This document shows positions 12,079 to 47,024 of a stretch of 64,000 bases of DNA, one piece after another. The DNA comes from Tetrapyrgos nigripes (taxonomy: Eukaryota > Basidiomycota > Agaricomycetes > Agaricales > Campanellaceae). Below the pieces are notes generated by a model. The model did not search any database, was not told the origin of the DNA, and saw only the letters and a program-made list of their open reading frames with translations. How positions within the stretch are numbered: the first letter of the stretch is position 1; every line of letters begins with the position of its first letter. Both the position numbers and the translations under genes were made by a program. The DNA lies in contig JAACJM010000162.1 in assembly GCA_013368315.1 (NCBI GenBank), forward strand, positions 1 through 64,000, read 5' to 3'.

Positions 12079-12497
12079 ATGGAATGCAAGTTCTTGGCGA
12101 GGATAAGATAACACTGATACTGCATTGGTGTTATCTCATACTTCGACGCCATGTTAACCACTACACTAAACTTGCTGTTATTCCTATACATAAACCCAGT
12201 TGAATGAACTGACAAACACTAGCACTAGCTTACATAATATGGCAATCCTGTTTAACGAGATTAATACATGGCCATTATCTACTTAATACAAGGACAAAGA
12301 ATGATTTGGTAGTGTTAACAGTACACTACAGCCTGTAGGACCTAGCAGACGAGTCAAAGAAACGCTAAGGGACGAGGGTTACAGTACTTACTATGGGAAA
12401 AGTGTTTATCCCTCCTTTGGTTTGCTGATCGAATAGATCCGAGGATGTGTCCTGGTCTATGACATTAGCGACTATGCCTGGCAATTGATTAATGTAC
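12079..12497. other. No gene seen
   Basis: This stretch is AT-rich with no coding frame longer than a few dozen codons that looks real. It probably contains the 3' flank of the decayed gypsy element; an LTR could not be delimited. Confidence 0.35.
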
Positions 12498-12719
12498 TTA
12501 CAATTGACTCATGGAGACAGCAACAGGTTGTCTACAAGTAGTACAACTGAATAGATGAGGGTTGGATTTTGAAGCCACCCAATGTTGGTTAGCAAGAAGA
12601 GAGTCCATAGGATGTCTTTTCAAAGCCAGGGTATGGGACGTAGACCTCACATCTTGACGTTGGTGAGGACAGAGAAGGAAACAGGACCAATGTCCAAGAG
12701 TACAATAGATGCAGGCCAT
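12498..12719 (-). CDS. Hypothetical Cys-rich ORF, possible exon
   Basis: The minus-strand frame starts MACIYCTLGHWSC and ends with SCTTCRQPV before a GTAAGT donor-like site at its end. Two CxxC-type pairs about 45 residues apart could form a small zinc-binding fold. It lies 240 bp downstream of the stop of the 300-codon gene at 12963-22396, so it is either a separate small gene or a fragment. Function unknown. Confidence 0.35.
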   Translation of the reverse strand: MACIYCTLGHWSCFLLCPHQRQDVRSTSHTLALKRHPMDSLLANQHWVASKSNPHLFSCTTCRQPVAVSMSQL

Positions 12720-12962
12720 GAGGATGGATCAAGTCTGAAAAAGTGGCACTAAGCACTGACAGTTTATATCCTGCTCAGAAATATTCTGATCCAAGTCCAA
12801 ATGACAACAGAATCTGGATCTGAGCAGCAGAACAAATGATGGTGCTCCAGAGAGATCAGAAGGGTCAATAAAGAATGATTTATTGATACCTAGCAGACGG
12901 TGTACCTATGCGAATGATCCAAAAACTGAATGTGACTACCTAGCGAAAGCTATACTAAGGGT

Positions 12963-15900
12963 CTACTGAGAGGCCTGAGCAGCTACAGATGAGGCAGAAG
13001 TAACCAAGCCCATCAGAATAACGGAGATAGACTTATTAGTGCTATTCTCAGGAGAAAGGTCCCTAAGAGACTGTTTCTCAGTCATGGCAGCATCCTTCAA
13101 CTCTGTACACTCAAGCTTAGTGTCAATAACTGCGACTAAATTGTCATAAGCCCCTCTGTAATGCAAGGCGAGGAAGTGCATTTGGTGAGCGACAGACAGC
13201 ATTTCCCCTCTCAGGAAGTTCTGCATAGCATTCAGAGACTCATCAGGAAGTTTCTTATAGTTGAAGAAAGCCCTGACATTGGTCTTACAGAAAAGCTCCT
13301 CAGGTGTATCAAGCAGTTCTAGAAAGGAAATCATAATGAGCCACTAGGTAGGAAAAAGATAGAGGAAATAAGTACTTACCAGTAGACAGAGGGTTGAAGT
13401 TGTTCACAGAACCAGTGAACACACGGCTACACTTGGTATGGGCAAGCTCGTCCTTGTCATGAATCGTCCCCCGCCTATTCATTTCCTTTCTATTCTTTTC
13501 CCTTTATTACCTATTTCCCACTTTAACCCCATAAATACTAACCATTTCTCATCATCGTCTATAGTTACCATCTCCATAGATCTATGACTCACACTCTTAT
13601 CTCCTCCGATTCCTATCTCCATGGACATTCTCACTGTCAATCATTCCTTATGATCCAGTACCTTCATCTATCCATATTTAGCTCATTACTCTCTCGCCCT
13701 TGACATCTCCACATGATACCGTCTATTATTACTTACTCTTTCCCATCTGTTCATATTTTACTTATATACCTGTGATCTTTGTAACCTATTCCTCAGTTCG
13801 TTCACTTCGTCTCCACTCCGTACTTTTACTACGCAGTGTAGAGCCTAGTCAGCTTACTTTCTCTCTACCTCTCTATCTCTTTATCTCTCTATCTCTTTTG
13901 ATCAATCTACTCTCTTGTAACTGACTTTCTCGTATTGTGTGACTTGGGTGGTTATTGAGTGTACCGACAACCTTGACACTTGAACGAACTCCCATACACC
14001 CACCTCACAAATCCTTCCGTCGTATTGAACCTCCCTACTACCCTACTCTTCCCTTTCATCCTGTCTACCCCACATCCCCAAATTCGTATCGAACCCACTA
14101 TAACCCCTCGTGACTACGAACGGGTTCCATTTCCCCTTCCTCACTACCTCTTGCACACTGAATACTGGGTCTCTCACGGAAGAAATATACAAGCGAACCC
14201 TTGGAGCTTTGACCGACACTTCGTTTGTACAAGACGTTGGGTGTGGAAACTTACCTCAGGTGACGTAGTTCTCTCGACGTTCTCATACATAACAGTGAAA
14301 GAGGACTTCGATACAGGAGAAACAGTGGTTCAGATCAAAGGACCTCTATTCTTCAGAGAAAACATCGACTACTCTCCATCATCACCCTACCCCGAATACG
14401 GTCTAGCATCCTCCTTTGTCCTAGGACCCAACTACCTTTCTTAAAAGAATTGGTGTATGACCGATTGACGATCCGCATCTGCAGACCCGAACCTCCACTG
14501 TGCCAACCAACCACACGTATTCCATCCCGCGTCAAACCAAGACGCCTGCTATATCCCTGAAAACGGCGACGATCCTTGGGTTCCGTGCACTACACAACCG
14601 TGCCTAAACAGATATAACACTCAACGACTCACTAACGTCGAACTCCCGAGTTGGTTACACGTTATAACCCAACTCCAAGAACTTGCAATTCAAAAAGCAC
14701 ATCGAAAACCCAGAACCAAATCAGGCCAAGGGACCTCTACACCTACCAACCAACCCTCCGAACCCAATCCAGTACCAGAAACCCCTTCCAATAACCCATC
14801 AGAACCAGACAATCCCACTCCCCCACCTTCTTTGCCCACCATTCCATCCGCTGAAGGACCATCCGTAGCCCCTCATCGCCCTCCTACACCTCCTTCTCCA
14901 AATCCGTCCGACCCAGACGACTCAGTCATGGCTGATACACCTCCTATCGGGTCGAACGGAACTTCCGAACGAGAAAGAAAACCAGACGCCTTCAATGGAG
15001 AATGAAGCGAGGCAAAACGATGGCTGGCCCTATTTAACAACTACCTACGCATGAATAAAGGAAAGTACCCGACTGAGGAAAGTCAGGTTTCGTTATTCCT
15101 GTCGTTCTTTATGGGAGAAAAAGGAGGAGATTGGGCAATGCAGAGATTAATAGAACGAGATGAAGATGAAGAGAACGAGGACTTGGCGAGTACACTGGAT
15201 AAGTGGAGGTGGATAACTTTGAAACAGATACGTGATAGATTCAAAAAGGACTTCAAAGCTCTCGCCTCGGAAGATGTGGCGAGGACAAAAATCAAGTTTG
15301 CTAGAATGAAGGGGACGGATATTAGCAGTTACAACAGCATCTTCGACACATACGGAGAAGAGTCCGAGTTCGGAGAAGCAGCGCTGTTGGAATTTTATCA
15401 GGATGGACTGCCACCCAAACTCCGAGAAGCTGTTGGAAGAACGTATCCAAAGTGGGATGACTTTGAGGAATACAAGGAAAGAGCTGTGGAACTTCATTTA
15501 GAGTGGCTGAAGGAACGGGAAAGACAAGGACGCTGGAAAACTACTTCGACATCGAAGAGTAGTCCAGGTCTGTCTCAGGGAAGAACGGTAGCAAGTGTCA
15601 ATGCGCTTATGAATATGGGACCAGGTGCTAACTCGTCTTTCACTCCACTACCTAAACTGACACCCGATGAAAGGACCAACTTCGAAAAGCAGGAGCATGC
15701 TTCGCATGTAGACAAACTGGACACATGAGTAACGAATGTCCAACATTCCCAAGGACGTCATCTCAAAACACTTCCCGAACCTTTCCCTCTCGTGCTGTTC
15801 GAACAGCCGAAACCGCATCTTCACCACCTGTAACGGTAGCTCAGACGTCTTCATCTCGAAACACAATCAAGGATATTTCCGACATGGTTAACAGGGTTAA

Positions 15901-18900
15901 AGGACTAGAGGGAGAAGAAAAGGAACAAGCAACCGTCTATTTAAAAGACATCATGTCTAAATTGGATTTTTGAATCACTCCTCTGCTACGTCGTCAGTAG
16001 GAGTAGAACAGTACACCGGACAGTTAAAGAACAATCGATATAGTGTGTTATACCCCTCTAGTGAGCGAGTCTTTCCTTCAGAAATAAGAATGTCAGCAAT
16101 CACTCGTAACAGACAGATACCATCAATCACACTCAAAACTGAATTAATCAGCAAAGTTACTGGCAGAAAAATCGACGCAAACGCTCTAATAGACAGCGGT
16201 GCAGAAGGCATAATCATCAATGGCCAATTCGCACAGAAACATCAACTCACCCTTCTTCCTATTAAGAACCCGTTTCCAGTTCGAAACGTCAACGGCTCCG
16301 AAAACACCATGGGATGGGTGCGAGAATATACTATCCAAAACCTCTGTATCTACTCCCGAGACGGCGAGGCGTACCACAAAGAAGAGGCTGAGTTTTACAT
16401 GACAGACATCGGGGATCACGATATAATCCTCGGTACCGACTGGTTGGAAGAACATAACCCAGATATAGACTGGTCAGAATCGCGGGTAGATATGACTAGA
16501 TGCCCAGAGACGTGCATCACGGCAAAACCTCCCATTCTCCATTTGAAAACTAAAAAACCCACAGTCGTCGACCCAAGAACCCACCACAAAGATTACCAAG
16601 TCAGATGGTTAGAACCAATTGGACAATTCAAACCAGTCGCCCAACCAAAAATCGCAGGGCGACGCCGTCGAATTCCTATTTGATCGTTCCACCGAAGTTC
16701 GGAGGAAACGGCAATCTTTACTGAAGACGATTATGGGAGAGATGCGATCCCAGGACAATGGGAACAGGACATAATGGAGGAATTGTTTGGGAAAGAGGAA
16801 AGGATAGACGAAGAGGCGCCAGGGATACTAAACCTGAACATCCGTGCAGGGTTCACAAAAGCACAAGAACTTGCAGAAGCAGCTCAGAATGTTCAGGTTG
16901 ATGTACCTCTTAAAGATAAGATTCCTTCGCAATATCATCAGTTCTTACGAGTCTTTGACAAACAAACTTCAGAACGATTACCGAAACGTGGCGGATGGGA
17001 TCATGCTATCGAGTTAAAACTGGACTTTGAACCGCACCCCTGCAAAACGTACCCTTTATCTCCAAATGAACAAAAGGAACTCGATGAATTCATCAAGGAA
17101 AACCTAGAGAAAGGGTATATAAGACCGTCGAAGTCTCCTATGGCAAGTCCCTTCTTCTTTGTAAAAAAGAAAGACGGAAAACTACGACCAGTACAGAACT
17201 ATCGTGCCCTGAACAGAGGGACCATCAAAAACGAATACCCCCTACCGCTTATATCAGAACTCGTAGACAAACTAAAGGGGGTGCGGATATTTTCCAAGAT
17301 CGACCTTAGATGGGGATACAACAACGTACGCATCAAGAAGGGAGACGAATGGAAAGCGGCATTTAAAACCAACCACGGTCTCTTCAAACCAACGGTGATG
17401 TTTTTTGGTCTTATGAACTCTCCAGCTACATTCCAAGCGATGATGAACACTCTATTCAAGAACCTGATCGACTCCGGAAAAGTCGTAATCTATATGGACA
17501 ATATTCTCATATTCACAGAATCACTAGAAGAACATCGATACATGGTGAAACAAGTATTGGCACGACTCCAGGATAACGATTTATACGCTAAACCGGAAAA
17601 GTGCACTTTCGAAACCGATTCAGTAGAATTCCTCAGCCTTATCGTTTCACACAACACATTGGCGATGGATCCAGTCAAGGTCGAGGGCATGACCAAATGG
17701 CCAACCCCACGCAACGTCAAAGACGTACAGTCATTTCTTGGCTTCGGAAATTTCTACCGGCGTTTCATACGTGATTTCTCAAAAATCGCATGACCACTGT
17801 TCGATCTCACAAAGAAGGAACACCCATGGGAATGGTCCGAAGAAGCTCAAAGGGCTTTCCAAGCACTCAAAGATACGTTTACGACCTCGCCAGTCCTTCT
17901 TATGCCTGATCATTCTAAACCATACCGAGTAGAAGTTGATGCGTCAGATTACGCTACAGGTGGTATCTTGCAACAACAATGTAAGGGTCACGTCCCTTAC
18001 TCCATATATAGCGCCTGCGACGGTATTCACACGTACCGAATATTGTGGCCTTTTGGTCCAGTTGGAGGTTGGGTCTCATCGCAGGCTGACCTAATCATTT
18101 ACAGAATATTCGGTATGTACGGTCACTGGTTCGATCCTCGAGGAACTCCCCTTCTCATAGGGCCTCGGGATTTCGCCCTTCACAGAACCAGTGGCTGAGG
18201 ATCGGGACAGGCATGGGAAACCTGAAACGATTCGGGGTCTTCTATATAAGGACACCGATCTGGGCCTGAGGAACCCAGAAAGGAGATTGCCTCGAAGGGG
18301 AGGTAATGTAAGGGTCACGTCCCTTACTCCATATATAGCGCCTGCGACGGTATTCACACGTACCGAATATTGTGGCCTTTTGGTCCAGTTGGAGGTTGGG
18401 TCTCATCGCAGGCTGACCTAATCCTTTACAAACAAGGACTGGATGATAAATGGCATCCGGTAGCCTACCTGTCAAAAGCCCTATCTGAAACTGAACGGAA
18501 TTACGACATTCACGACAAAGAATTGCTAGCGATCATACGCGGACTCGAAGCCTGGTGACATTACCTGGAAGGTGGACCACATACCATTGAAATCTTGACC
18601 GATCACGACAATCTCAGATACTTCACCACCGCTCAGAAACTCAGCCGACGACAAGCAAGAATGGCCTTGTTTCTGACCAGATTCGACTTTACGCTCACTC
18701 ACAAACCCGGGAACCTGAATCGAAGTGACCCGCTTTCTCGCAGGTCAGACCATAAAGAGGGGGTCGAGAACGACAACAAAGATAGGGTCTTATTGGATCC
18801 CAGGTTCTTCAGGATTCAAGCGACAAGACCAGGAACGGTAACCGCAATTGGAGATACAGAATTGAAAAGATGGATCAAGGAATGTCTGAAAAAGGATGCT

Positions 18901-21900
18901 GAAGTTGTAAGTGCGTTACAAACGATCTTTAACAACAGACCACCCGCACTGGCAAAAAATCTACAGGAATGGAATTACGAAGACAGAATCATCCTGTTCC
19001 GAGGAAAGATCTACATCCCAAACGATCAACAACTCAGACGGGACATTGTTAAAATGCATCACGATAGCCTCACGGCAGGACATCCGGGACAATTCAAAAC
19101 GTACGAACTCGTCAGTAGAGAATTCTGGTGGCCTGGTATGTCAGTATTCGTTCGTAACTATGTTGAAGGATGCGCTACCTGTCAGTTAACCAAGGCAAAT
19201 AACCATCCGGCGCACGTACCACTAATTCCGAACGAGATACCGGAACGACCCTTTGGCACAATTACAACCGATTTCATCACGGATCTGCCAGAATGTGACG
19301 GCTTTAATGCAATTCACGTCACAGTTGACTGTTCAACAAAAACAGTTGTTATTTCTCCATGCAGAAAAGATATCGATAGTAACGGAACAATTGACCTATT
19401 GTTCGACGGCACTTGGCGACGATACGGCTTGTGGGACAAAATGATATCTGACCGCGGACCTCAATTCGCAAGCCAAGTGATGAAAGGGATATACGCTAAG
19501 TTAGGTATCACTTCGGCACTCAGTACAGCTTATCATCCCCAAACAGATGGCGAGACAGAAAGGTTCAATCAAGAACTCGAACAGTATCTTCGAACCTTCT
19601 GCAACTATCGCCAAGACGATTGGGTTAAATACCTACCTTACGCCGAATTTTGCCACAATACCCAAGTTCATTCAGCAACCGGGAAGTCGCCGTTCGAACT
19701 ACTCCATGGATACCTACCCCGACTCTTCCCTTCCATCAATCCAACTTCACACGTACCAAAAGTCGAAGAGCGCCTTCAAAACTTGGATACTCTCCGAGAA
19801 GAGCTAAAAGCAAGTCTGGCGACAGCAGCAGAACAGATGAAGGAGCAGAACAAGGACTATACTAGCGAAGGAAAGAGGTTTAAGGTTGGGGACAAAGTAT
19901 TGCTAGACGGAAAGAATTTGAAGACAACGAGACCGAAAGCTAAGTTGGCAAATCGTCGTCACGGACCTTTCAAAATCACTGATGTTATCAGTGAAGTCAA
20001 CTACCGACTCAAATTACTGAATAGCTGGCGCATTCATCCAGTGTTCCACGCTTCACTCTTATCGCTGTACAAAGAAACCGAGGCCCACGGAGTGAACTAT
20101 CCGGGAGAACCGGCTGAGTTACTCCCCGAAGACAACGAATATGATGTAGAAGCAATTCTGGATTCAAAACTAACAAGGAACCGCCAGGGAGTACAATACC
20201 TTGTCAAATGGTTGGACTATGCTGACTCAGAGAATTCATGGGAACCGGCTTCGGGATTGACAAAGGTGAAGGAGATGATCGAAACCTTCCATGAACAACA
20301 TCCAAATGTGTATCGACCCAAAAACCTGATACGCCCTGGAACAACGGTACGTTCACTAGGAATCGCCATGGAAGACATCTGGCGAAGTACCTGTGTGCTT
20401 CAGGCAAAAGCACAACTCCGAGGAGAAACACTATTACGAACCGTTGGTATTCTATGCCCTCCTTCCCACCTCACTCAGCAATCAGACTCAGACTTCTGTC
20501 ACCATTCATCAATCGCATTCCCTCGTTAACGGCGTCTACTGCCAAACCCGTCTCCGAACGATGACCTCACCGTCTGTGCAGCACTTACGCCATACAAACC
20601 AGCAACTATAAAGGACCCCTCTCCAGGATAGAGAACGACAGAACATCATCCATCGCTACCAGTCAACCACCACTCACTCATACCCCTTCTACCATGATGT
20701 CGACTACTCCTTCCACCGACACCATCGTCCACAACGCACACCCAACCAACAGGGGGCGCTGCACCTACGGCAAACGCTCAGGACGTCAATGCCGACTTTC
20801 AAAACAACATGCAGGACCACACAACGGATGCCAACGCTGCACATGGGGAGGAGAGGATGGACCAGGGCACTGTAGACTGGGTAGAGGACATAGCGCCAGA
20901 TGCATAGTACAGTGGACATCCCTACGTGCAGAACACAAAGGGAACCTTGGATGGGGCAATGGCAGTATATGGGGGGCACACGTCACCCTACCATATAATA
21001 ACGACAATGGAGGAAATGGAGCGGGCTGGGGTACAGCTACCGACACGACAGGATGGGGAGACTTAACTGACTGGAACGATCCCAGGTGGGATGCTGCAAA
21101 TTACACCGAAGGATGGGACAGCTTGAAGAAGTACTGGCCGAGTCAGGGAGACTTGGACAGGCGACTTCGTCAACAGTGGGCGAAACACTGGAAAAGCAGC
21201 TTGCCGAGCTCCGGTGAAAGCTCGTCCTAAAGAGGGGGTAATGTCATGAATCGTCCCCCGCCTATTCATTTCCTTTCTATTCTTTTCCCTTTATTACCTA
21301 TTTCCCACTTTAACCCCATAAATACTAACCATTTCTCATCATCGTCTATAGTTACCATCTCCATAGATCTATGACTCACACTCTTATCTCCTCCGATTCC
21401 TATCTCCATGGACATTCTCACTGTCAATCATTCCTTATGATCCAGTACCTTCATCTATCCATATTTAGCTCATTACTCTCTCGCCCTTGACATCTCCACA
21501 TGATACCGTCTATTATTACTTACTCTTTCCCATCTGTTCATATTTTACTTATATACCTGTGATCTTTGTAACCTATTCCTCAGTTCGTTCACTTCGTCTC
21601 CACTCCGTACTTTTACTACGCAGTGTAGAGCCTAGTCAGCTTACTTTCTCTCTACCTCTCTATCTCTTTATCTCTCTATCTCTTTTGATCAATCTACTCT
21701 CTTGTAACTGACTTTCTCGTATTGTGTGACTTGGGTGGTTATTGAGTGTACCGACAACCTTGACAGTCCTGATGATTAGCCTCAGCCTTACGAAGGTAAT
21801 AGTCAGCCTTGAGGTATTCTCGAGACGAGGTATCAATGCCCTCGACGAAGGAGTAATGGAGACATACAGTGGTAGCACGAGTTGTTGGACAAGGGGTACC

Positions 21901-22396: not shown

Positions 22397-23899
22397 GAGA
22401 GAGAGGAATAGTGATGAGATGCGAAGTAGATTCCATGAGACATCTAGTATTGGTGGGCATTGAGAAGGTACACTTTGTGGTCATCGGCCATCCCTGCCAA
22501 ATTCAAACTCTGACACTGGCTGACGCAAATGGCAGAAGTCTCTGTAGCCTCATAGGTTCATCCTGTGAACTAGTTTGTATGGAGAGAGATATTTATTTAG
22601 ACTATAACGACAATGTCTAGAAATCTGAATTTCAAGATTATGGTCAGAAGTATATGGGACAGTGAAAATGGCACCCAGTTTTCGTCACTGTTCTCTTTCT
22701 GCTGCGAAATTCAAAAATCCAATTTCAAGCCTTGGTATAGTACTCTAATAAGTGTTTGTTTGATACAAAGTAGGAACCATTGAGAGGACAAGGAAGTTTG
22801 GAGAATCTGGCAGGGAGACAGGCATCAAAGATAGGGGCTAGATCCTGTTTAGCTTATATACCCAATTTTCTTGTGGGGAAAGGCCTCATTTTTCAATTTT
22901 GGATATTTCTCAAAGATCCCAGACCCTAGGCAGCACAATCATAGCTGTTTAGGGTGTTAGAGGCTGAGGGGAAGTGCGAAAAGCCATAATGTGTGAAGGT
23001 CACACTTTTACAGTCACACATTTTTGCCCCAGGTGGCCGATGACCACACCTTGAGTGATTAATTAAAGATTTGTAGGTGACTATGATTCTATGCAAGTCT
23101 ATGTACTGTCGAGGTTGAAATCCCTCATCCCCCCGACCGCAGGCCTGAGCTAACGGCCCTCAATGAGGGTGTCCTTCTCGTCTAGCAAAATGGCTATTAA
23201 AACGCTCCTCCAAAATATATATATATATTTGTAGGTGAATACAAAGTCTAGATACCATTTCGGGAAACTCGCCACAAATGTACCTACAAACAACCCCGCC
23301 TGGTCCGTGCGTTCTTTTCTCAGCAATAAAAGTCTGCTCGGAACGTTTGTAATCTTTACCACTCTGGCCTTTTGGCTTAGATCAAGTGTAGTATCTGTTC
23401 TTAATAGTTTAACCACTATTACGAGGGCACCGCCCTCCGTATTTGGTTATCTAATTTTTGTCGCCCCCGTCCTCGAAGCTCTGCTTGCATCTTCGGGGCA
23501 CGATGACCTTGCCACTGCAGTACCGGCTTGTGTCGTCAGGGGAACTACTTTGCTGCTGTGGTTTTCTTTCCCTTCTCCTTTCTATCTTTCTCTTTGCTGC
23601 GAGCCACTCACTTCGGGTCACTTGATTCGTTGAGGGTCTCAGCAAAAAGATTAGTGGAAGTTGGTGAAGATGGAAGTCGTTAGTTTTTGGAACTTGTTTC
23701 ATCTTTGGAGCAGGCGTCTTTGGTAGTTTTATGTAGAGAGAGAGCTTTAGTATACAGTATGTGAATACACAATATCCATGAAGTTTGTGAAGTCGTCAAC
23801 CTCAATGAGATTCCTGAGCGTTTGTAGCGTTTGAGCCTTTCTGGAGGGACTGTTAAAATATAGACAAGGCCTACTTACGACAGACTACAATTTGATTCA
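22397..23899. other. Intergenic, no supported gene
   Basis: Upstream of the MAQCC gene and downstream of the NmrA-like gene. It contains a TA-dinucleotide run near 23215-23230 and a short inverted repeat (GTGTGAAGGTCACAC, 22994-23008). Frames on either strand here are short and show no family features. Confidence 0.45.
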
Positions 23900-24953
23900 T
23901 CAACCCCACCACATCCTCAAAAACTCTTCCAAACCGACTGGTTTTACAACATCCTTCAGACCAGCATATGTTTCGCTACGCTTCATTTCCCCTCTGCCAA
24001 AGCTCAGTCGTCCTTCCAAACCAATCTTGGCTAACGGCGTGGCACTGGGATCCAACTTCGACTGAATTGTTTCTTCGGAAATATAGGTCACTTGGAGCTT
24101 TTTACCTGCCAGTAGCACAAAAAGTGAGTAATCCGCAGTGATACTTGGATAAAACATAGACTCTGCACTCGCACTTACCCAAAATTTCCTCTGCAAGATC
24201 TCTAATCTCATTCATACTCCTCACATCACCTACCAAATCCATCTGCTCTGGCCAAACATCCAACTGCGTCGCATGCGCTATAAACTCTCCCATATCCTGA
24301 ATCCTACTCGTCCACAACAAAGCTTGTCCGTCTCCAGGAATCTCTGCAGTGCCATTTTCGAAATCAAAGACCAGCTTATGCGCAAACATATGCCCATGCG
24401 CGTCTTCTCCACTAGATTTCGGATTTCCAGAAGCTAGGTAGTTCATTATCACCCCAGTGACGAATTTGGTGTATTCGAAATGAACACCTGAGCCTGAGCC
24501 TGAACCAGAGCGAGCGGCTTTAACCTCTCGAAGACGCTGAAGTATAGGACGCTTTTTCACGTATATCGTAACCGAATCAGCGGTTTCAGAGTCGACGGAT
24601 AGTTCGCTTGGAGAAAAGCGACGGATGGTAGGGACGTTGAGAGCAGCAGTCAGCACGTTTTGCTGCGCTACATCGAATACCTCCACATCGCCAAACAACG
24701 CTGAAATGACAGTATCGATGTTATGTTCTCGGAGAATGGACTCGATACCTGAGGTATCGTTGTAGTCGACCGCAATGATAGGGGCACTGGATCCGGCAAA
24801 GGTGATGTCGGACTTTTCAGGTTTGACGGAGCGAGAAAGCACAATGATATGAAGAGAAGGAACGGTTGATTTAAGTGAGAGGAGTGACTCGACGATGTGA
24901 AGACCTATACGGCCAGTTCCCCCTGCGACTGCGATGCGTTGAGAAGGAGACAT
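23900..24953 (-). CDS. NmrA-like NAD(P)-binding reductase (isoflavone-reductase-like), copy 1
   Basis: Two exons, 24953-24179 and 24105-23900, joined across a 73-bp GTAAGT...CAG intron, give 326 residues. The N-terminus MSPSQRIAVAGGTGRIG carries the GGTGxIG dinucleotide-binding motif (residues 11-17) of the atypical short-chain dehydrogenase NmrA/PCBER group. PTIRRFSPSELSVD and FVTGVIMNYLASGNPKSSG match the mid-protein blocks of that group, and the C-terminus VVKPVGLEEFLRMWW is typical of its substrate-side lobe. Substrate is unknown; such proteins act as NADPH-dependent reductases or redox sensors in the cytosol. It is about 85% identical by eye to the copy at 31.6-32.6 kb in the same orientation, so the two are recent duplicates flanking the kinase fragments. 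Confidence 0.85.
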
Positions 24954-25423
24954 AGTATGATGAAGGGGTAGTGGGTGTTACAGTCAGGAGAAGTCTTATA
25001 TGAGATTGCCAGATGTAAGATGTATTGCATGCCGTGCGTACGTGTACGGCGCTTTTAGGCAATAGCTCGGCGGTATGTAGAAACTTCCACGGAAGGAGAA
25101 CCATTGAAGAACGCCTAAAGGTACTATATAATCAAGCGCATGCAAACACCATGCGTCGCAGCAATGTAGTAGGACAACTTGTAGCCAGCCCTTAACCCGT
25201 CTGAAGAAAGTCGGACAGTTTATTACAGGGATTAAATCACAGACGTACGACGCAATATGAGATCATCCACTCCAGCCGGTTGAAAATCAGTATGTGTCGG
25301 AGTTCTTTTTGTCTTGGCTCCACCAATGCCAGCCCTACGAGGATTATAGAGTCATTTGAGGTACTCCAGAACACGGGCTTTTGTTATCTGAAGAGACACA
25401 CAGCTCAGCAGGTCTTCTGATAC
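24954..25423. other. Intergenic start of a duplicated block
   Basis: From about 25055 this matches the sequence starting at about 27987 (CATGCGTCGCAGCAATGTAG at both 25152 and 28075). No gene is seen. Confidence 0.6.
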
Positions 25424-25570
25424 ATGGATGATACGCCATACCTCTTACATAGAGCCAACAGTGATCGTATCCAGCTTCAATGTTTCGTCAACATCCATTA
25501 GTAAAGCCATGTCGTGTATCATGACCGTCTTCAAAACCATCCTTCAACGATATTCACGGCAGCACGCGTT
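25410..25570 (-). pseudogene. Decayed kinase receiver scrap (NIK1-like)
   Basis: On the minus strand LKTVMIHDMALLMDVDETLK can be read. It corresponds to LKTIMLHDTDSLVDYDG in the better-preserved fragment at 26.7 kb. No longer frame survives. The matching piece in the second unit (about 28350-28450) is shorter by a deletion. Confidence 0.6.
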
Positions 25571-25827
25571 CGCTTTGACGCCGCCAGGTCCACAAGTATT
25601 CATACGTTGGTCGTGGGTGGATGCGATGCGACCGTCGACGAGTGACAGTCCGAGTCGGAGAGCAGGAGTGACTCAGCAACTGAGTGAGTAGCTTTTAAAG
25701 GTTCCATAATCCCAATCAAGAAGGGAGTTTCATAGACATCGAGTATTTATGAGTCTGGCTGAGCAGTCCATTGTAATAATGACAGGCTGTAAGCAATAGT
25801 AAGAACAGATATGAGTGGCAAAAGTAC

Positions 25828-27567
25828 TCAGTAAAACGATTCATAGCGGCATTTAGCACCTCCATTCCGTTCACTTAGTAGTCCATCAATAGCGTCAATC
25901 AAGTCATTTCTGCGTATGGGCTCTAGTAGAGAGGAAGGGCATCGTCAAGCACAGAGATATGTTGCATGGAGAACGGGTGGACATACTGGTTATGAGGTCA
26001 TTCGCTCCAGCTTCTAAGAAATCCGTGCGAGTACTAGTAATAACTGAAAAGCCCCAGTTAGGCGTTATCTGTGACTAGCTAGAAACTGGCAGAGATGTAC
26101 AACCAGAGCGTTCCAATCCAATTATCGGAACAGGTGTCAGCTGGTTCTTCTTCTCATAAGTCCGAATCAGCCCTATGGACTCGAAGCCAGATATGATAGG
26201 CATAATATCGTCCATCTAAGTCAAAATGTATCAATGGGAATGCAGACGTACAGGTAGGGTAAGACTAAGACACACCATGACCAGATCGTACCGCTTGGTA
26301 CCTTTCTCAATTCTCTTCGTGTACATCTCCACCGCTTCTCGTCCGTTTTCCGCAATGTCGATTTCATGACTAAACTTCTCTAGTATCTTCTTCATTAGTC
26401 TCTGGTTCACCACGTTGTCTCCGACAGCCAAGATATAATACGACGGTATCCTCGGGATATGCGTTGAGAGACCTTCGTTCAGTGCCATGCACAGATCTGA
26501 AGGAGAGATAGACGTAGTGAGGTATTTGTGAGAGATGACATTGTTCCTGATGTACCACTTTGCTGTAAAAGACAGTTCGTATTTTCTTTTTTTGGGATGT
26601 AGTCAATCACACTCACTGTCAGGCTCTAATAATGCAGGCGCAAGCAGTACTATGGGTATCCATTTGAAATGTTCGAAAGTACGCAGTTTTGTCACCTGGA
26701 ATGATGATTGACTTTCAACGGTCGTCAAAACAGCATAAAAGCGAACTTGTACCTCTTCTATGGAGCTTGCTACAATCGTATCCGGCTTCAAAACTCCATC
26801 ATAGTCCACCAACGAATCCGTGTCGTGTAGCATGATGGTCTTCAAACCCCATTGTGCAATGAGGTCGGCGACACCCGTCTGAATCCGCAAAGAATCCAAA
26901 AGCAGGACGGTCTTATTGGAGTAAGGCACCGGTAGAGAAGGGGTAGAGCGCGACTCTACCCCGTGGGCAGAAACTCGAGAACGCATCGTGAAGAAGAATC
27001 GGGTGTCTTGGGGAGGAACCGAATGCACCCAAATGTTCCCGTGCAGATTGAGGACTTCGCGTCTCATATGGCACAGAGGTTCCAGGTTAGGTCTCAATGC
27101 CATAGCCAAGTCGCTCTAAGTCATTCTGAGTCGGAAACAGCAGTGCAAGCAATGACATAGCTACCCACACCCCGCGGATACTCTTCCTCTGCTTGACAGT
27201 ATTCCATCATCAAGCTCAACTGCTCAGGCCCAAACCCATAACCAGTCTTCCTGGCACAAAACTGGAGCAGTATGCCTTCGTCATCTTTCTCCAGCAGCCT
27301 GCAGCTCAGTACTACACAGTTCGGTTTTCCTTCCCGTTGGGCTGATTCGCGTCCGATCAGGTCTCCCACCAGTACATGGATGATGGTCCTGAGTTGAGTG
27401 GGGTTACCGAAGAGTCTGTCAGGAGTATCAGAGTGGATTTTGTAGTTAAAGTCCAGGGAAGGTAGTATCGGTGTCGAACGGTTTGAGATTGCGTAGGCGA
27501 AAGCACGGAAAATGGTTTGGCGGAGGGAATAGTCAATCGCTGGTCGTGGTCCTAACCAAGCCGACAT
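25828..27567 (-). pseudogene. Truncated group III hybrid histidine kinase fragment, copy A
   Basis: In order on the minus strand: an ATPase-like domain (27567-27150) with GNPTQLRTIIHVLVGDLI at the N-box and ARKTGYGFG at the G1 box; an ATP-lid/G2 remnant (LNLHGNIWVHS, FFFTMRS); a degenerate receiver (NKTVLLLDSLRIQTGV ... FKWIPIVLLAPALL); and a C-terminal receiver (26488-25828) with DLVM-MDDIMP across an intron and ITKPIRRNDLI. The segment around WIPIVLLAP is characteristic of fungal group III (NIK1/Os-1) kinases. The N-terminal HAMP repeats and phospho-accepting His domain are absent. The N-box lacks its Asn and the G1 box lacks its Asp, so ATP use is unlikely. An acidic-pocket change (VGDN for AEDN) and an in-frame stop near 26060 suggest decay. 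Confidence 0.7.
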
Positions 27568-28349
27568 GTTCAGCGTTTATCACTGAATAGCATTGTGCTG
27601 GGCTTTGATTTGGCTTCAATTGGGAGGTTGCCGCGAATCCACATGGGACTTTGTGTTTTCGCCTTTATTACATCTTGCTCTTGACCACAATGCCGTCTGC
27701 GAAGGTGGAAGATCTCGACAAGTTCAGAAATTCGGGAACGGTCTCGTGATCCTCAAAGTCTTTTCCCGAACTTTCACCTTGTTTTGCTGCCAGTCAAAAC
27801 TACGTCCTATAACCAGTCTGCTATCTGGATATTCACCACTGCGAAAGCGCGGAGAGGCACTCAGAAGCGAGCCGTATGCCCCCAGATCTCTGGCCTATTA
27901 TTTTTGCTCCGTGTCCTTGAATATTATGTTCGGGCCATTGCCTCACCAAGACGACCCCTGTATTAGAATTTTAAGCAGCAGCTCTAGGCAATATCTCGGT
28001 GGTACGTAGATTCCACGGAAAGAGATCTATTGAAGAACGCCTAAAGGTACTACATAATCAAGCGCCAAAAACCATGCGTCGCAGCAATGTAGTAGGACAA
28101 CTTGTATCACCTCCAGTCCTTAACCCTTCTGATGAAAGTAGGATAGTTTATTACAGGGATTAAATCACAGACATACGATGCAATATGAGATCATCCACTC
28201 CAGCCGGTTGAAAACCAGTACGTGTCGGAGTTCTTATTGTCTGGCTCCACCAATGCCAGCCCTACGAGGATTATAGAGTCATTTGAGGTACTCCAGAGCA
28301 CGGGCTTTTGTCATCTGAAGAGGCACACAGCTCAGCAGGTCCTCCGTTT

Positions 28350-28450
28350 ACATGGATAATACTAAAGCCATGTCATATATCATGACCGTCTTCAAAGCCG
28401 TCCTTCAACGATACTCACGGCACGCCTTCGCTTTGATGCCGGTAGATCCA
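28350..28450 (-). pseudogene. Decayed kinase receiver scrap, unit B
   Basis: Sequence matching 25505-25575 of unit A (for example CATGACCGTCTTCAAA at both 25521 and 28381), but with upstream bases deleted. It cannot encode a protein. Confidence 0.55.
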
Positions 28451-28659
28451 TAAGTATTCATATATTGGTCGTAGGTGTATGCGATGCGACGAGTGACAGT
28501 CCGAGTCGGAGTGCGGGGGTGACTCAGCAACTGAGTAGCTCCATAATCCAAGAAGGGAATTTCATAGACATCGAGTATTTATTCTGGCTGATCAGTCCAA
28601 CATAATAATGGCAGGCTGTAAGCAGCAATAGCAAGAACAGACATGAGTGGCAAAAGTAC

Positions 28660-30382
28660 TCAGTAAAACGATTCATAACGGCATTTGGCACCTCCATTCC
28701 GTTCACTTAGTAGTCCATCAATAGCGTCAATCAGGTCATTTCTGCGTATAGGCTCTAGTAGAGAAGAAGGGCATCGTCAAGCACAGAGATATGTTGCATG
28801 GAGAACGGGTGGACATACTGGTTACGATGTCATTCGCTCCAGCTTCTAAGAAATCCGTGCGAGTAGTAATAACTGAAAAGCCCCAGTTAGACGTTATCTG
28901 TGACTAGCTAGAAACTGGCAGAGACGTACAACCAGAGCGTTCCAATCCAATTATCGGAACAGGTGTCAGCTGGTTCTTCTTCTCATAAGTCCGAATCAGC
29001 CCTATGGCCTCTAAGCCAGACATGATAGGCATAGTTTCGTCCATCTAAGTCAGAATGTATCATTGGGAATGCAGGCGTACAGATAGGACGAGATTGAGAC
29101 GGACCATGATGAGATCGTATTGCTTAGTCCCTTCCTCAATCCTCTTCGTGTACATCTCCGCCGCTTCTCGTCCGTTTTCCGCAATGTCGACATGACTAAA
29201 CTTCTCGAGTAACTTCTCCATTATTTTTTGGTTCACCATGTTGTCTTCGGCAACCAAAATATAATACGACGGTATCCTCGGGATATGCGTTGAGAGACCT
29301 TCGTTCAGTGCCATGCACAGATCTGAAGGAGAGATAGACGTAGTGAGGTATTTGTGAGAGATGACATTGTTCCTGATGTACCACTTTGCTGTAAAAGATA
29401 GTTCGTATTTTCTTTTTTTGGGATGTAGTCAATCACACTCACTGTCAGGCCCTAATAATGCTGGCGCAAGCAGTACTATGGGTATCCATTTGAAATGTTC
29501 GAAAGTACGCAGTTTTGTCACCTGGAATAATGATTGACTTTCAACGGTCGTCAGAACAGCATAAAAGCGAACTCGTACCTCTTCTATGGAGCTTGCTACA
29601 ATCGTATCCGGCTTCAAAATTCCATCATAGTCCACCAACGAATCCGTATCGTGTAGCATGATGGTCTTCAAACCCCATTGTGCAATGAGGTCGACAACAC
29701 CCGTCTGAATTCGGGAAGAATCCACAAGCAAAACCGTCTTGTTCGAGTAGGGCGCCGGTAGAGAAGGAAGAGAGCGCAATTCTGTCTCGAGAGCAGAAAC
29801 TCGAGAACGCATCGTGAAGAAGAATTGGGTGTCTTGACATAGATCCGAATGCACCCAAATATTCCCGTGCAAGCTGAGGACTTCGCGTTTTACATACCGC
29901 AAGGGGTACAGGTTAGCCCCAAGTGCAGTCAGCAGGCCGTTCTAAGTGTTACTGAGTCGGAAAACAACAGAGCAAGCAATGATATGGCTACTCACATTCG
30001 TCAATAGATCCTCTTCCTCTGCTTGACAGTACTCCATCATCAAACTCAACTGCTCAAGCCCGATTCCATTTCCAGTCTTCCTGACACAAAACTGGAGCAG
30101 TACGCCTTCATCATCCTTCTCCAATAGCCTGCAGCTCAGTACTACGCGGTTCGGTTTTGCTTCCGATTGGGCTGTATCACGTATAAGGAGGTCGTCCACG
30201 AGCACACGAATGATGGGTCTGACTTGAGCGGGGTTACCGAGGAGTCTGTCAGGAATATCGGAGTGGATTTCGTAGTCAAAGTCCAAGGAAGGTAGTATCG
30301 GTGAACGGCGCGAGATTGCGTAGGCGAAAGTACGAAAAACGGATTGGCGGAGGGAATAGTCAACCGCTTGTTCGGTCGACAT
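28660..30382 (-). pseudogene. Truncated group III hybrid histidine kinase fragment, copy B
   Basis: Same architecture as copy A: ATPase-like domain from 30382 (GNPAQVRPIIRVLVDDLL; VRKTGNGIG), degenerate receiver (NKTVLLVDSSRIQTGV ... WIPIVLLAPALLGP) and C-terminal receiver (YYILVAEDNMVNQK; then MDETMPIMSG after an intron). The receiver acidic pair (ED) and phospho-acceptor Asp are kept, unlike the pocket in copy A. The ATPase N-box again lacks Asn. There is no His phospho-transfer domain. Whether any spliced product is made is unknown. A short HATPase-receiver protein could act as a decoy, but decay is the simpler reading. Confidence 0.7.
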
Positions 30383-30606
30383 TGGTCTTAATCACGCCAA
30401 CACGTTCAGCAAGCATTACCTTAGGCGTCAATTGGTGAGCGACGTTTGAGAAGTCGCGTTTTCGCCGCTAGGTATAATTTATCCTATCTTGCTCTTGACC
30501 ACGATCGTCGATGTCGTCTGGGAAGGATGAAATATCTCGACAAGTTCAGAATCCCAATTTTTGGCTTGGAAGTTGGCTTAAAGCTGGCTCTCGCCGGTCG
30601 CGGACC

Positions 30607-31257
30607 TACTATCCATACCCCTGAAGTGACAAGGGCCCCAGAAGTGAAAAATTTCAAGAAATATGTCCATATCTTTGTCCCTCCCCCATTTCCCTTCGTA
30701 GAAACTGAACGGTAAATACCTCTATACCTTACCTTCATTTCTATGTAGTCAGAATTTCCAGATGTGCACTGAGACATTTGCCATGGGCCGCAAACGACGA
30801 AAAACTGCGTTTCCGCGAGCGTGACAGAAGTGAAAAGGTTCAGAACATGGTATTCCTCTCGAGAAAATATTCAGGGCCTTTTCTAGTACATCATAGTGCG
30901 TATATGTATCTGTATGACTACTTTTTGATGTCAAAATTGAGGAGTTATGCATCATCAGGTTCAAGAGGTTGCAGTCGACGGTGAAAACTTGATTTAAACT
31001 CCGCTCGGCACCTGCGTTTTCAATGAGTGTCACACCAGTGACATTTTTCACTTCCCCGCCAATACGCTGTCACAAAACGTCCCTCGTCGGCCCTCCACGG
31101 CTTGTATCCACATCCCTCGGAAAACCCTCTAAGTTTGATAAACTGAAGGCTTATACCATAGACTTGAGGTGTGTAAATTTTTGCGGACAACGGTAAAGAT
31201 TTGAGGAAGTTTTAATTCATCAACATTTTATTTTTCACTTCTGGGGTATGGATAGTA
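30607..31257. mobile_element. Non-autonomous inverted-repeat element, 647 bp, TA duplication
   Basis: The termini CTATCCATACCCC (30609) and GGGGTATGGATAG (ending 31255) are perfect inverted repeats. With one mismatch they extend through GAAGTGA (about 20 bp). Both ends are flanked by TA (30607-30608, 31256-31257), as for Tc1/mariner-type elements. Internally, AGAAGTGAAAA-like motifs recur near both ends. No transposase frame is present. It lies in unit B of the duplication at a place where unit A has no such sequence. Confidence 0.75.
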
Positions 31258-31598
31258 TTCGGATTTTAGGAGCGATCTCGTGTTTCTCGCGATCGGAAGT
31301 CTTTTCCCGAACCTTCACCTCGTTTTGCAAAGAAAAAAAAAACTACGTCCTACATATAATAATCATATATCATCGGAAACGATCAGCCTATTTTTTTTCT
31401 CTGTCTGCTTGCCATTGCCTCGCCACGACGACTGTGACCTTCATGTTCATCGTATAGTCTTTGGAGAGGCCGGTGGTACTTTAAGTTGTAGAACAGTGTC
31501 TACCAATAGAATATTTCTACCCATCTCATTCTTCGGAACAGTCTGGTCATAAAGTCTTGAGGACACCTACATACCTACGCAACACTAGAAAGAAACCC
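31258..31598. other. No gene; end of duplicated unit B
   Basis: It matches 27735-27960 in part and then runs into the 3' end of the NmrA-like gene. No coding frame is supported. Confidence 0.5.
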
Positions 31599-32629
31599 TC
31601 AGCTCCACCACGTCCTCAGAAACTGTTCCAAACCGACTGGTTTTACAATGTCCTTCAAACCAGCATACGTTTCGCTACGCTTGACTTCACCCCGAGCAAA
31701 GCTTATCATTACCTCAGCGACAACGTTGGTCAGTGAGGAAGGATTAGGACCCAGCCTCAATTGAAGCTCTTCTTCGGACAGATAGGTCACATCCAGCTTT
31801 TTGCCTGTCAATTGCACAAAAAAGTAAGCAAAACCCCAGTACCACAGCGAACAGAATTACCCAAAATCGCTTCCGCAAGAGCCCTAATCTCATTCATACT
31901 CCTCATATCACCTACCAAATCCATCTGCTCTGGCCAAACATCCAACTGTGTCGCATGCGCTATAAACTCTCCCATATCCTGAATCCTACTCATCCAAAAC
32001 AAAGCTTGTCCGTCTCCGGGAATCTCTGCAGTGCCATTTTCGAAATCAAAGATCACCTTATGTGCAAACATATGCCCATGCGCATCTTCTCCGCTAGATT
32101 TAGGATTGCCAGAAGCTAGGTAGTTCATTACCAGCCCAGTGACGAATTTCGTGTACTCGAAACTTGGAATGCCTGGGCCCGAGCGAGCGGCTTGAATCTC
32201 TCTGAGACGTTGGAGTATAGGACGCTTTTTCAGGTAGTACATCGTAACAGAATCGGCGGTTTCAGAGTCAATGGATAGTTCGCTTGGAGCAAAACGACGG
32301 ATGGTTGGGACGTTGAGAGCAGCTGTGAGGAGGTTTTGCTGCGCTATGTCAAATACGTCTGCATCGCCGTACAATGCTGAAATGACAGTGTCGATGTTAT
32401 GTTCTCGGAGAATGGACTCGATACCCGAGGTATCGTTATAGTCGACCGCGATGATAGGGGCACTGGATCCGGCAAAGGTGATCTTGGACTTTTCGGGTTT
32501 GATGGAGCGAGAAAGCACAATGATATGCAGGAAGGGAACGGTTGGACTGAGCGAGAGGAGAGACTCGACGATATGAAGACCTATGTGGCCAGTGCCTCCT
32601 GCAACCGCGATTCGTTGAGAAGGAGACAT
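31599..32629 (-). CDS. NmrA-like NAD(P)-binding reductase, copy 2
   Basis: Exons 32629-31861 and 31804-31599, joined across a 56-bp GTAATT...CAG intron in the same place as in copy 1, give 324 residues. GGTGHIG replaces GGTGRIG, keeping the Gly residues. Other blocks (IRRFAPSELSIDSET, NYLASGNPKSSGEDAHGHM, VGLEQFLRTWW) are shared. It lacks the short SGSGSGSG insert of copy 1. Both copies are open with conserved splicing, so both are likely functional. Substrate unknown. Confidence 0.85.
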
Positions 32630-43711: not shown

Positions 43712-45495
43712 CTACCTGTCCCTTTCAACTCTCTCATCTATTTCATACAGGTCACTGAACAATGTTGAGAGATAACTTGCCCATGAGTTACATCTTTGAC
43801 AAAGACTTTTGACCTCGGTACCGATAACATCCCTAAGACGTTTGATATCCACATTATCTTCAGCTGGGAGACCCATGAGGATGTTGTGATATACACCAGC
43901 CACAGCAACAGATTCGTCAATGGTCAGTTGTATCAGAACACGGACCACCTTTGGTATTATGCGATTCCGAAAGCGTGAATAGATGGCAGCATGAGGCCAT
44001 GCAAGACGAAAGGCGGACCACCACAACTCCGTAGGATGACTGGCTTGAAAGGCACGATCTTTAGGGAAAAAATGGTATGTTGTCAGAGCACCATCAAGTA
44101 ACGAGAACTTGTGCACCACCCAATGGCACTGATCTGCAAAGTGCTTGTCCAACACCACCAATAAACGAGGCACACCCTTCAGACTGAGGGCATCCGAAAG
44201 CATTCTCAACATGCTACCTGCATCGCTATGGTCCCCTTTGAAAAGGGAAGTGTTGATCATCCGTGCCATTCTCCATTCCACAAATAAGCAATCCACCACT
44301 CCCCTGGTGCTATCTGTCATCTTGGAATGAATATATCTCCCATAGGTCTGACTAGTCCAAATATGCAAAGCTCTATTGCTGACCTGGTGCCCATGAGTAG
44401 TACTATCAAGGTCAGCATCAAGTTGGCTGGTAGACAACAAGATAGCCCAGTCCGATAGTTGCTGGTGTATCCTCTCCCATGGTGGAAGAGTGTCATAGTA
44501 ATTGGCATCGCGAGGAAACTCATCCGAGAGAAGCGAAAATTGCTCTGGGTCATGCGGGGAGGTCCAGACTTGTGTGCGGCATGCAGGGCATTCGAACATT
44601 TTGTCATAATTGTTGTTTTGGAACATGGGTAAGCACTCTTCCTGAAAATATCATATGGTCAATCATGACGGACAGCTGAGAGCAATGTAATGTGAAAGTA
44701 AAGGGGTAGACTAACATGCAAAACATGCCCACATATCAACTTTCTCAATGGTTTAGGAGTCCTGTCATCTTCTGGCTCCACGTCATCCATGCCATCATCA
44801 ACTTGAAACTCTGGTGCCAGTGCTGGTTCTTCGAAATCTTCGAGACAGATATTGCAGCATGCGTTATAGTCTTCGATGCAAACAGATGGTATGTCTGAAT
44901 GCACAAACCTAGACGGGACATCAGACAAGGTGGGAGGTTTGGAAAGATGCACTAACATTGATAGCCATTCAGATGAAGCAGGTCCATTGACTTCGGAAGG
45001 TTGAAGGTCGGGGATACAAGGCAGGTAACGAACAAGTGGTAGTTTACCTGGAAAAAATGATAAATGATAAGAATGAAAGACAAGCAAAGATAATGTTAGT
45101 AAACCCCCAAATAACATAGTCAATGAAGCCTCACTTCTTCTCTCTTTTACAGCCACTAGTCTCCCCAAGAGTTGTGCAAACTCGTCAAATTCCCGGAAAT
45201 CTAGCCCTTTGGTTTTTTCAGCGCGTCTCACCAGCTTCCTCATCTTCGGTAGTACAAGGACTCAGAGTTGCTCTGGCTCAAGCTCGTTGAATAATTCCTT
45301 CAATCTCTCCATTGCCCATTGCAACAGTGGAGGTAGCGGAGACAATGAGGATGACGACGAATCCGAATCTGCATCAGTAGAAGCAGAAGCGTCCAGTGAT
45401 GCTAGGTGGTATGAAGGCCTGGGTGGGTTGTGCGAAATCTGGTCAACTTGTTCAGGACGTAGTTCTGTGGCGATGGTGGGAGTGTTCTGGTCCAT
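43712..45495 (-). pseudogene. RING-H2 family gene, copy 2, one premature stop
   Basis: Exons 45495-45135, 45047-44716 and 44641-43712 sum to 1623 nt, 540 codons plus stop, in matching phases. The only defect is TGA at 45264-45262 (codon 78), where the 47-kb copy has CGA. The product would have an acidic Ser-rich N-terminus, then a RING-H2 finger at roughly residues 185-255 (CNICLEDF ... CGHVLHEEC ... CPAC) with a long acidic loop between the second and third metal ligands, then about 290 residues of unknown fold. RING-H2 domains recruit ubiquitin-conjugating enzymes. A Met after the stop (45243) could allow a shorter product containing the whole RING. The hydrophobic stretch read at 45133-45050 is intron, not a membrane helix. 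Confidence 0.75.
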
Positions 45496-45818
45496 GTCGT
45501 GAATCGGAGTGTCGAGGGCAGAGACAAGAGGTTTAAGAAGACCGCAGTGATAAGTGTTCCTGATGTTCTACTTCCCACAAGTCGTAGCCTTTTTATCATT
45601 GATAGGCGCCTCGTTTTGAGTCTAAGTACATACTACAGCAGTTTGATGGGGTGGATCTGTGTAGCATGCTGTTACATGACATGATTGAGATTCGAGGCTG
45701 TGCGTTGGATAGGATGGCAGATTTTGGGCGAGTTAGAGCCACAGATTTGCAACGGATTGAGACGAACCTCAGAAAGAGGGGAACAGCGCCGCTTACTCAG
45801 AACTTCCTTCCTTCTACA

Positions 45819-45897
45819 TATGTAGGTTAGTTTGTACAAAAATTATTTCACACGCACGCTCTACATGAATTAATTTTTGTATAAACTAACCTACATA
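45819..45897. mobile_element. 75-bp foldback element with TA duplication
   Basis: TGTAGGTTAGTTTGTACAAA at 45821 is inverted at 45895, with one substitution in about 25 bases and a spacer of about 20 bases. TA flanks both ends (45819-45820, 45896-45897). No coding capacity. Size and layout match the 70-bp element at 38.4 kb, though the arm sequences differ. Confidence 0.7.
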
Positions 45898-46054
45898 CGA
45901 ACTACTTCTCTTCGCGCATTGCCATCTTGTCTTGATTTTATATATACTGGTCTTATTCTTGTACTGACTCTGTGTCTGTCTGCATTTTCCTGCTCCCATT
46001 CCCCATAACCCCAGCTAAATACGCCCGAGGAATGTACGTAATCTGAGTCAAAGA

Positions 46055-46675
46055 TAGGGCTCCTATCGGATCGGATTGTGTCGGATTCGGATGCCATCCG
46101 CTCGGATGGGTGGTCTGCAAATCCCAATCCGCATCCGCCGGATGGTATCCGAGCATCTGACGGATGATCGCCGGATGAGTTCTGCTTCCCTTATATAGTA
46201 TATCTACGATCACATGACATACAGATAAGATAAACAACATGGTGGCGGCCAAGGAATGCAAAAGAGTAACAGAAAATAAACCAAGGATATGAGCTGGAGA
46301 GAAAAGATAATAAATTAAAGAATAGAAAAGTATGTGTCTAGGTTTCAGACCTGACACCACGCCTTCAATATCGGAGCGCCAGCGTTCGCGAAACACTCAA
46401 ACCAGTCAGCGCCATGAAGGATTAATGCTGTCTGTTGAAGCCACACATACTACTGGTTGCGGCCGTTATTTATTTTTGTGTATTTCTCTACTCGGTAATA
46501 GTACTATATAGTGTTTCTGAAACTTCCAGTGTTGGGCTTTCCATCCGCAGATTACCGTCGGATTGGTCGGATGCTATCCGTCGGATGGAGGAGGAGGAGG
46601 AGCACCATCCGCATCCGAATCCGAAGCAGCAATCGCTCGGATGGCGCCGGATCATCCGATCCGCTAGGAGCCCTA
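46055..46675. mobile_element. 617-bp non-autonomous TIR element built of CGGAT repeats
   Basis: The ends GGGCTCCTATCGGATCGGAT (46057-46076) and its inverse at 46654-46673 differ at one base, and both are flanked by TA. From each end inward for about 110 bp the sequence is packed with CGGAT/ATCCG words, including three near-palindromes CGGATG-NN-ATCCG. The middle has no transposase. Dense subterminal repeats are often transposase binding sites; here they also form CGG-N7-CCG, a layout bound by fungal zinc-cluster factors. Confidence 0.8.
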
Positions 46676-47024
46676 GGACTCAAAGATCGAGTTCCCGAAG
46701 AAGTAGAGGCAGAGCTGCTGCTGGAGGGTAGAGGGATAAAGTATAGGCTTAGGTATTTGTCTGCGGAGGATTAATTAGGCATTGTACAAGGAGCAGACTT
46801 CAAAACTACTAGTAGGCTAGCAGCACAGTCAAAACGTCGTCGGAAAGTTGGTCTGAAGGGATAAGTTTGTGGATTTTCATCATATATTGGTAAAAGTAGC
46901 GCCGCTTGCGAGTGCACGCCTTCGAGTCAAACTTTTCTTTCTTTTCTAAGTAGCAGAAACTTGAGATTAGGCCATTCCTTAGTATATAATCTGTATAATC
47001 ATAATCACGATGCAGTCTGTGCTA
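46674..47024. other. Short spacer, no gene
   Basis: Spacer between the 617-bp element and the RING pseudogene. No supported frame. Confidence 0.45.

Follow-up and report, generated by a model that had tools for sequence, protein, structure and literature searches.

TRIMs of plants, animals, and fungi are alike in being shorter than 1000 bp and in having LTRs of 100-250 bp, a primer site, a purine tract, no genes, and solo LTRs, and their definition, as worded in the accessible part of PMC6934838, includes a primer site complementary to a tRNA. They occur in Boletales (PMC5689174, in part), and fungal TRIMs, those of Agaricomycetes included, are already described in the available portions of PMC5689174 and PMC10886601. 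An LTR element of 292 bp has been reported in grasses (PMC3281118, in excerpt), so that the 451 bp of the element described here are no record. The accessible sections of a paper on bivalve TRIMs mention the self-priming of coding elements and propose no clear mechanism for the bivalve TRIMs themselves (PMC6934838). In Tf1/Tf2, Tj1, and other self-priming Gypsy elements, the primer site is complementary to the stretch of the LTR taken to be the start of the RNA (PMC7175516 and PMC4600332, partial texts).

We analysed the first 64,000 nucleotides of contig C158 (the window, meaning this whole stretch) in the 98.5-Mb assembly of Tetrapyrgos nigripes, which NCBI taxonomy places in Agaricales, Marasmiineae, and Campanellaceae; all genome searches were run on this assembly. 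Coordinates refer to the + strand, the target-site duplications being strandless. The element occupies 17980-18430, 451 bp composed of a 5' LTR of 124 bp (17980-18103), a 203-bp interior, and a 3' LTR of 124 bp (18307-18430), and it is bordered by two copies of AACAA (17975-17979 and 18431-18435). The LTR termini are TGTAA...TTACA, with the usual TG...CA ends, and the sole difference between the LTRs is an A at 18097 against a C at 18424. A TATA box, TATATA, lies at 18005-18010 and is present in 39 of 40 aligned LTRs (alignment A2, hand-picked from the fetched ones), and the polypurine tract GAAGGGGAGGTAA at 18294-18306 adjoins the 3' LTR. The sequence-only reading had listed these same parts, and all were recovered from the sequence. 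It had also named an 11-base primer site complementary to the element's own LTR, and this too holds: the 11-mer TACCGAATATT at 18034-18044 (LTR positions 55-65), exact in 26 of the 40 LTRs, is the reverse complement of 18105-18115, a site that starts one base past the LTR. Because the TATA box is located about 25-30 nt upstream, this 11-mer is the predicted 5' end of the RNA.

The longest ORFs wholly inside the element are of 88 and 76 aa, and neither has a Pfam match, in agreement with the earlier statement that it carries no genes. Its length below 1000 bp, LTRs within 100-250 bp, and purine tract, together with the lack of any coding capacity found, bear out its identification as a TRIM. 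The element has T4 runs only at position 72 of each LTR; since other copies have interior T4 runs, no argument is drawn from T-run terminators.

The window copy is a member of a mobile TRIM family of T. nigripes. Searches of the assembly returned at least 40 matches with the interior (40 of 42 candidates scored) and at least 40 with the LTR (40 of 134 scored), and a 33-base LTR core occurs 98 times genome-wide when up to 3 mismatches are allowed, compared with 0 for the reversed control. Fifteen copies, taken as those with both LTRs fairly complete, were compared in detail. Exact 5-bp duplications flank 11 of them, all different; at C11 4 of 5 bases match, and C171, C410, and C204 show no match. 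Solo LTRs behave similarly, with exact duplications at 10 of the 14 fetched, two of these ten (C235 and C277) having common flanks. An array assessed separately, on C18, reads LTR-interior-LTR-interior-LTR with CTTCC on both sides. The LTRs of the 15 copies differ from each other at 0-12 positions per copy, and 48 of the 54 differences are transitions; by eye, these often fall at CG sites, which matches the expectation for methylated-cytosine decay. Five copies, on C4, C20, C25, C269, and C271, represent one subtelomeric insertion with the duplication GCAGG, which has one mismatch within the primer. Around it, at least 5 kb of sequence is identical and stands 3354 bp from each of the five contig ends, which reflects either homogenisation of the subtelomeres or an artefact of assembly, and this copy contains about 275 bp of additional interior sequence. 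At C204 130315-131069, two oppositely oriented TRIM copies are separated by about 14 bp, one of them lacking its 5' part.

The window copy interrupts a chromovirus, as the sequence-only reading had stated. This chromovirus has a 5' LTR of 524 bp at 13455-13978 and a 3' LTR at 21242-21765 that is identical to it over all 524 bp, a GTCCT target-site duplication, and detectable protease, RT, integrase, and chromodomain. The TRIM lies in its pol region, with the insertion point in the RNase H domain. Stop codons flank the insert in the pol frame, one to either side, so the TRIM alone does not account for the broken chromovirus; the chromovirus at 13455-21765 thus combines identical LTRs with stops in pol, as if it had been broken at insertion or mutated later. 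For the empty-site search, the TRIM with both flanks was compared with the genome and 40 of 478 candidates were scored. All 12 chromovirus relatives matched on both flanks are empty at the TRIM site, and in each of them the two flank matches share exactly 5 bases, which means one copy of the target and no TRIM. The TRIM thus inserted into a pre-existing chromovirus copy, which bears out transposition by insertion. The insertion had been called young from its single LTR mismatch; the identical LTRs of its host make it recent, and the empty relatives accord with this.

No near-identical allele that would represent a second haplotype was found for the locus, the best other full-length match being at 91%. 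The flank that holds the chromovirus, window 12200-13450, is itself a dispersed repeat with eight other near-full copies at 85-91%. Elsewhere in the window, a U2 spliceosomal RNA gene lies at 23356-23544 (Rfam RF00004, 115 bits), and 23900-32536 and 43719-47596 contain diverged direct duplications, 85-96% alike over pieces of 100-300 bp with a spacing of 2-8 kb. Two NmrA-like proteins of the window's contig appear among the protein matches. A near-perfect 90-nt palindrome at L037 1819-1908 is likely a short inverted-repeat element; unrelated miRNA models matched both of its strands, with scores short of their gathering thresholds.

The complementarity between the primer site and the LTR is far beyond chance. 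None of 3000 dinucleotide shuffles gave an 11-nt match that began no more than 5 nt from the LTR end, and the best shuffle reached 10 nt. In the predicted fold of a 206-nt RNA that starts at LTR position 55 (-80.2 kcal/mol, z -3.58), all 11 nt sit on the primer site and the primer helix encloses a U5 hairpin (18067-18096, with 18067-18075 paired to 18088-18096), followed by two stems. The best fold of each individual copy places at least 9 primer nucleotides on the site in 13 of 20 copies, 8 in one, and none in six (alignment A3, 20 copies hand-picked from the fetched ones). In a longer RNA, from LTR position 55 into the 3' LTR, the primer site is predicted to pair instead with the second 11-mer, that of the 3' copy of R. 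Across the primer:site helix 97.3% of cells are paired without any double change, 8 of 13 pairs are invariant, and the others show one-sided changes or are broken, such that covariation neither proves nor refutes the helix. The nine pairs of the predicted U5 hairpin show zero variation in the 20 copies.

Covariation is informative for the RNA that follows. RNAalifold, applied to 32 interiors, returned a 13-pair stem directly after the primer site (stem 1; 18120-18197, with 18120-18132 paired to 18185-18197) and a second stem in two parts (stem 2; 18199-18233, with 18199-18204 paired to 18228-18233 and 18208-18211 to 18221-18224). The alignment, A1, retains 32 of 48 interior matches; the 16 omitted comprise 9 that duplicate the subtelomeric insertion or are second pieces of it, and 7 other partial or duplicate pieces. 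Over 31 distinct rows, 98.0% of the 709 cells of the two stems are paired and 26 cells have changed on both sides, the covariation score being reached by 0 of 500 shuffles and slid-partner controls giving 15-44% paired. The picture is less clear for two of the five measures: 10 of 500 shuffles reach the 6 pairs with a double change, and 398 of 500 reach the 16 pair types. The clear double changes are AU/GC (5) and CG/UA (5) in stem 1, and AU/UA (12) in stem 2. These cells count sequences, not events, and because the stem 1 changes mostly split the older from the younger group, a few events may underlie them. The two stems downstream of the primer site are kept by compensatory change among the copies. 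A hairpin at the 5' end of U3 (17981-18000, with 17981-17987 paired to 17994-18000) behaves alike: 97.8% of the 223 cells of its 7 pairs are paired, its covariation score is reached in 0 of 500 shuffles, and pair 6-17 shows the compensatory change (GC in 20 sequences, CG in 10, UA in 1, other in 3). Two other candidates were set aside: a helix joining LTR alignment columns 34-41 to 101-108, which is 96.7% paired with covariation at shuffle level and is not claimed, and a pseudoknot of 18132-18139 with 18197-18204, which competes with stems 1 and 2, the structure preferred by RNAalifold.

A TRIM without genes would borrow its enzymes, and the interrupted chromovirus points to a candidate source, as it would seem from its sequence to self-prime by the same logic. 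Its primer site at 13981-13990 is complementary over 10 nt to the core AGTTCGTTCA at positions 341-350 of its own LTR, a layout obtained in 0 of 2000 shuffles. Allowing up to 3 mismatches, the chromovirus primer segment occurs 677 times in the genome (reversed control, 0) and the LTR/primer-site junction 501 times (reversed control, 44), and among the best matches listed all but three primer segments keep the 10-nt core. Of the 150 RNase H matches scored, irrespective of family, 19 lie in stop-free frames longer than 1300 aa, and frames of this length lie between or beside LTRs of the window-chromovirus family, for example on C321 and C49. The chromovirus family is large and includes some long open pol frames, so that helpers of such a kind are available. 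Among the assembly matches listed and the pattern matches, no autonomous element has the interior, the primer site, or the exact purine-tract junction in common with the TRIM. A helper recognisable by shared sequence was also sought with two patterns, the LTR end plus primer site and the purine-tract/LTR junction; their exact matches all lie in TRIM copies or fragments, outside which there are some matches with 1 or 2 mismatches. With no sequence-sharing helper found, the TRIM is linked to its candidate helpers by mechanism only; homology between LTRs is seemingly not needed for trans-mobilisation, according to the available part of PMC10886601.

Could the element be a passenger, duplicated along with one chromovirus, and not an independently transposing family? 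The window copy does sit within a chromovirus, and the five subtelomeric copies do derive from a single insertion in an identical segment. Both the 12 relatives empty at the site and the distinct duplications at many sites speak against such passive copying, the latter refuting it for the family, and we give it practically no credence. The sequence-only reading had proposed that many copies with distinct 5-bp duplications would confirm an active family, and that finding no copies, or copies in the same chromovirus context only, would point to local duplication; the LTR and interior searches of this genome found the many copies, at many sites and with differing duplications. Priming by a tRNA, through its 3' end or an anticodon loop, with mobilisation by Copia elements and an incidental LTR match, deserves more weight. 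Primer sites that pair with the 3' end of a tRNA begin with TGG. The TRIM site does not, and an 11-nt self match one base from the LTR is hard to reconcile with coincidence given the shuffles above; the purine-tract/LTR junction, GGTAA|TGT, is moreover common to the TRIM and the chromovirus. The case for a tRNA comes from fungal Helenus, for which the accessible text describes mostly anticodon-loop tRNA primers, 5-bp duplications, and a link to Copia helpers (PMC10886601). On balance we regard tRNA priming as improbable.

How the RNA is made is less clear. An A-box-like TGGTCCAGTTGG at 18054-18065, exact in 37 of the 40 LTRs, and a B-box-like GGTTCGATCCT at 18128-18138 (GGTTCGATTCC in several older copies) lie in the LTR and the interior, respectively, 74 nt apart from start to start, and this arrangement suggests a putative Pol III promoter that straddles the border between LTR and interior. 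A Pol III start lies about 20 nt before its A box, which here would coincide with the self-primer 11-mer. Pairs of A and B boxes were scored at a spacing of 30-100 nt in 12 copies with 1000 shuffles each, using a Pol III consensus, and in 10 of the 12 no more than 2 shuffles equalled the best pair (16 for C11, and 568 for C35, whose 5' LTR is interrupted). Judging from these motifs, Pol III may drive the TRIM RNA; of all the LTRs, only the 5' one in a full-length copy has both boxes. The competing explanation, a self-primed TRIM transcribed by Pol II only, has the near-universal TATATA about 25-30 nt before the predicted start on its side and treats the boxes as chance or relic. The B box overlaps stem 1, whose pairing could alone conserve it, but GGTT on the 5' side of this stem is constant across all 32 copies, whereas three of the four bases it pairs with vary, and the shuffle results for the box pair are likewise at odds with chance. 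An origin of the TRIM from a tRNA was considered and rejected, neither Rfam nor ARAGORN finding a tRNA in it, which also favours Pol II, as does an A box (TGGTC...) one base off the TRGCY of Helenus (PMC10886601, in part). Transcription by Pol II only is, in our estimation, just short of an even bet. We advance tentatively, as clearly below even odds, a SINE-like LTR parasite in which a Pol III RNA of about 350 nt, with its promoter split across the border so that the 5' LTR acts as one only in full-length copies, folds its 5' end into a primer and is then reverse-transcribed and integrated by self-priming chromoviruses.

Based on the above data, we propose, with a probability of about 0.78, that the gene-less TRIM inserted into the chromovirus is self-primed by the first 11 nt of its RNA and that its enzymes come from self-priming chromoviruses. 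The match statistics, the predicted fold, and the like layout of the host chromovirus all favour self-priming, as had been suggested from the sequence. The RNA would start near LTR position 55, and its first 11 nt would pair with the primer site just past the LTR. RNase H would presumably cut off the 11-mer, as in Tf1, and the paired 11-mer would then prime reverse transcription. Copying enzymes would be borrowed from the self-priming chromoviruses of the T. nigripes genome, the probable helpers, and stems 1 and 2 might act in packaging or priming.

The cis signals of LTR retrotransposons are usually studied in large coding elements, and here they come down to about 450 bases, while diverged copies in one genome already reveal which RNA stems compensatory change keeps. 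As the likely primer is part of the TRIM itself, no tRNA would be needed in tests of helper dependence. Synthesis of the RNA by Pol III would link SINEs and LTR elements; should the split promoter and the self-priming both prove true, the element would be the first TRIM known to prime itself and would represent a new route for mobilising Pol III RNA. Earlier work has described TRIMs, self-priming, and Pol III TRIMs separately. A self-priming TRIM, which the sequence-only reading had judged unusual, was not found in the literature searched, mostly outside subscription papers and hence weak as an absence. Added to that reading here are the predicted fold of the primer over a U5 hairpin, the covarying RNA stems, the abundant self-priming chromoviruses as a candidate helper class, and the pair of A and B boxes.

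Compared with TRIMs as defined, whose primer site is tRNA-complementary (PMC6934838, available part), the window TRIM has a site that matches its own LTR over 11 nt. The complementarity of Tf1 is also of 11 nt, and matching LTR 55-65 is a Tf1-like layout, with the RNA start predicted there; a U5 stem-loop is reported as required in Tf1, and a U5 hairpin is predicted here (PMC7175516 and PMC4600332, partial texts). Tf1-type elements, of the Tf1/sushi chromovirus lineage, encode Gag and Pol, whereas the 451-bp TRIM encodes neither, and it would work in a Tf1-like way without being a member. With Helenus and the proposed TRIMp3 it has in common its shortness, 5-bp duplications in fungi, A/B-box motifs, and occurrence in Agaricomycetes. 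In Helenus, however, the LTR holds a tRNA-like sequence that includes both boxes, whereas here only the A box is in the LTR and the B box belongs to the interior, so that tRNA-derived A and B boxes within the LTR, by which Helenus/TRIMp3 are recognised, are not found in the window TRIM. Helenus is moreover tRNA-primed, with Copia-like primer sites in fungi and, as far as the accessible text goes, no complementarity between the tRNA sequence of the LTR and the primer site, whereas the LTR of the window TRIM matches its site (PMC10886601). The window chromovirus resembles the TRIM in self-priming layout, 5-bp duplication, TGT...ACA ends, and GGTAA|TGT junction, but it is coding, has LTRs of 524 bp, and is not among the matches scored in genome searches with pieces of the TRIM.
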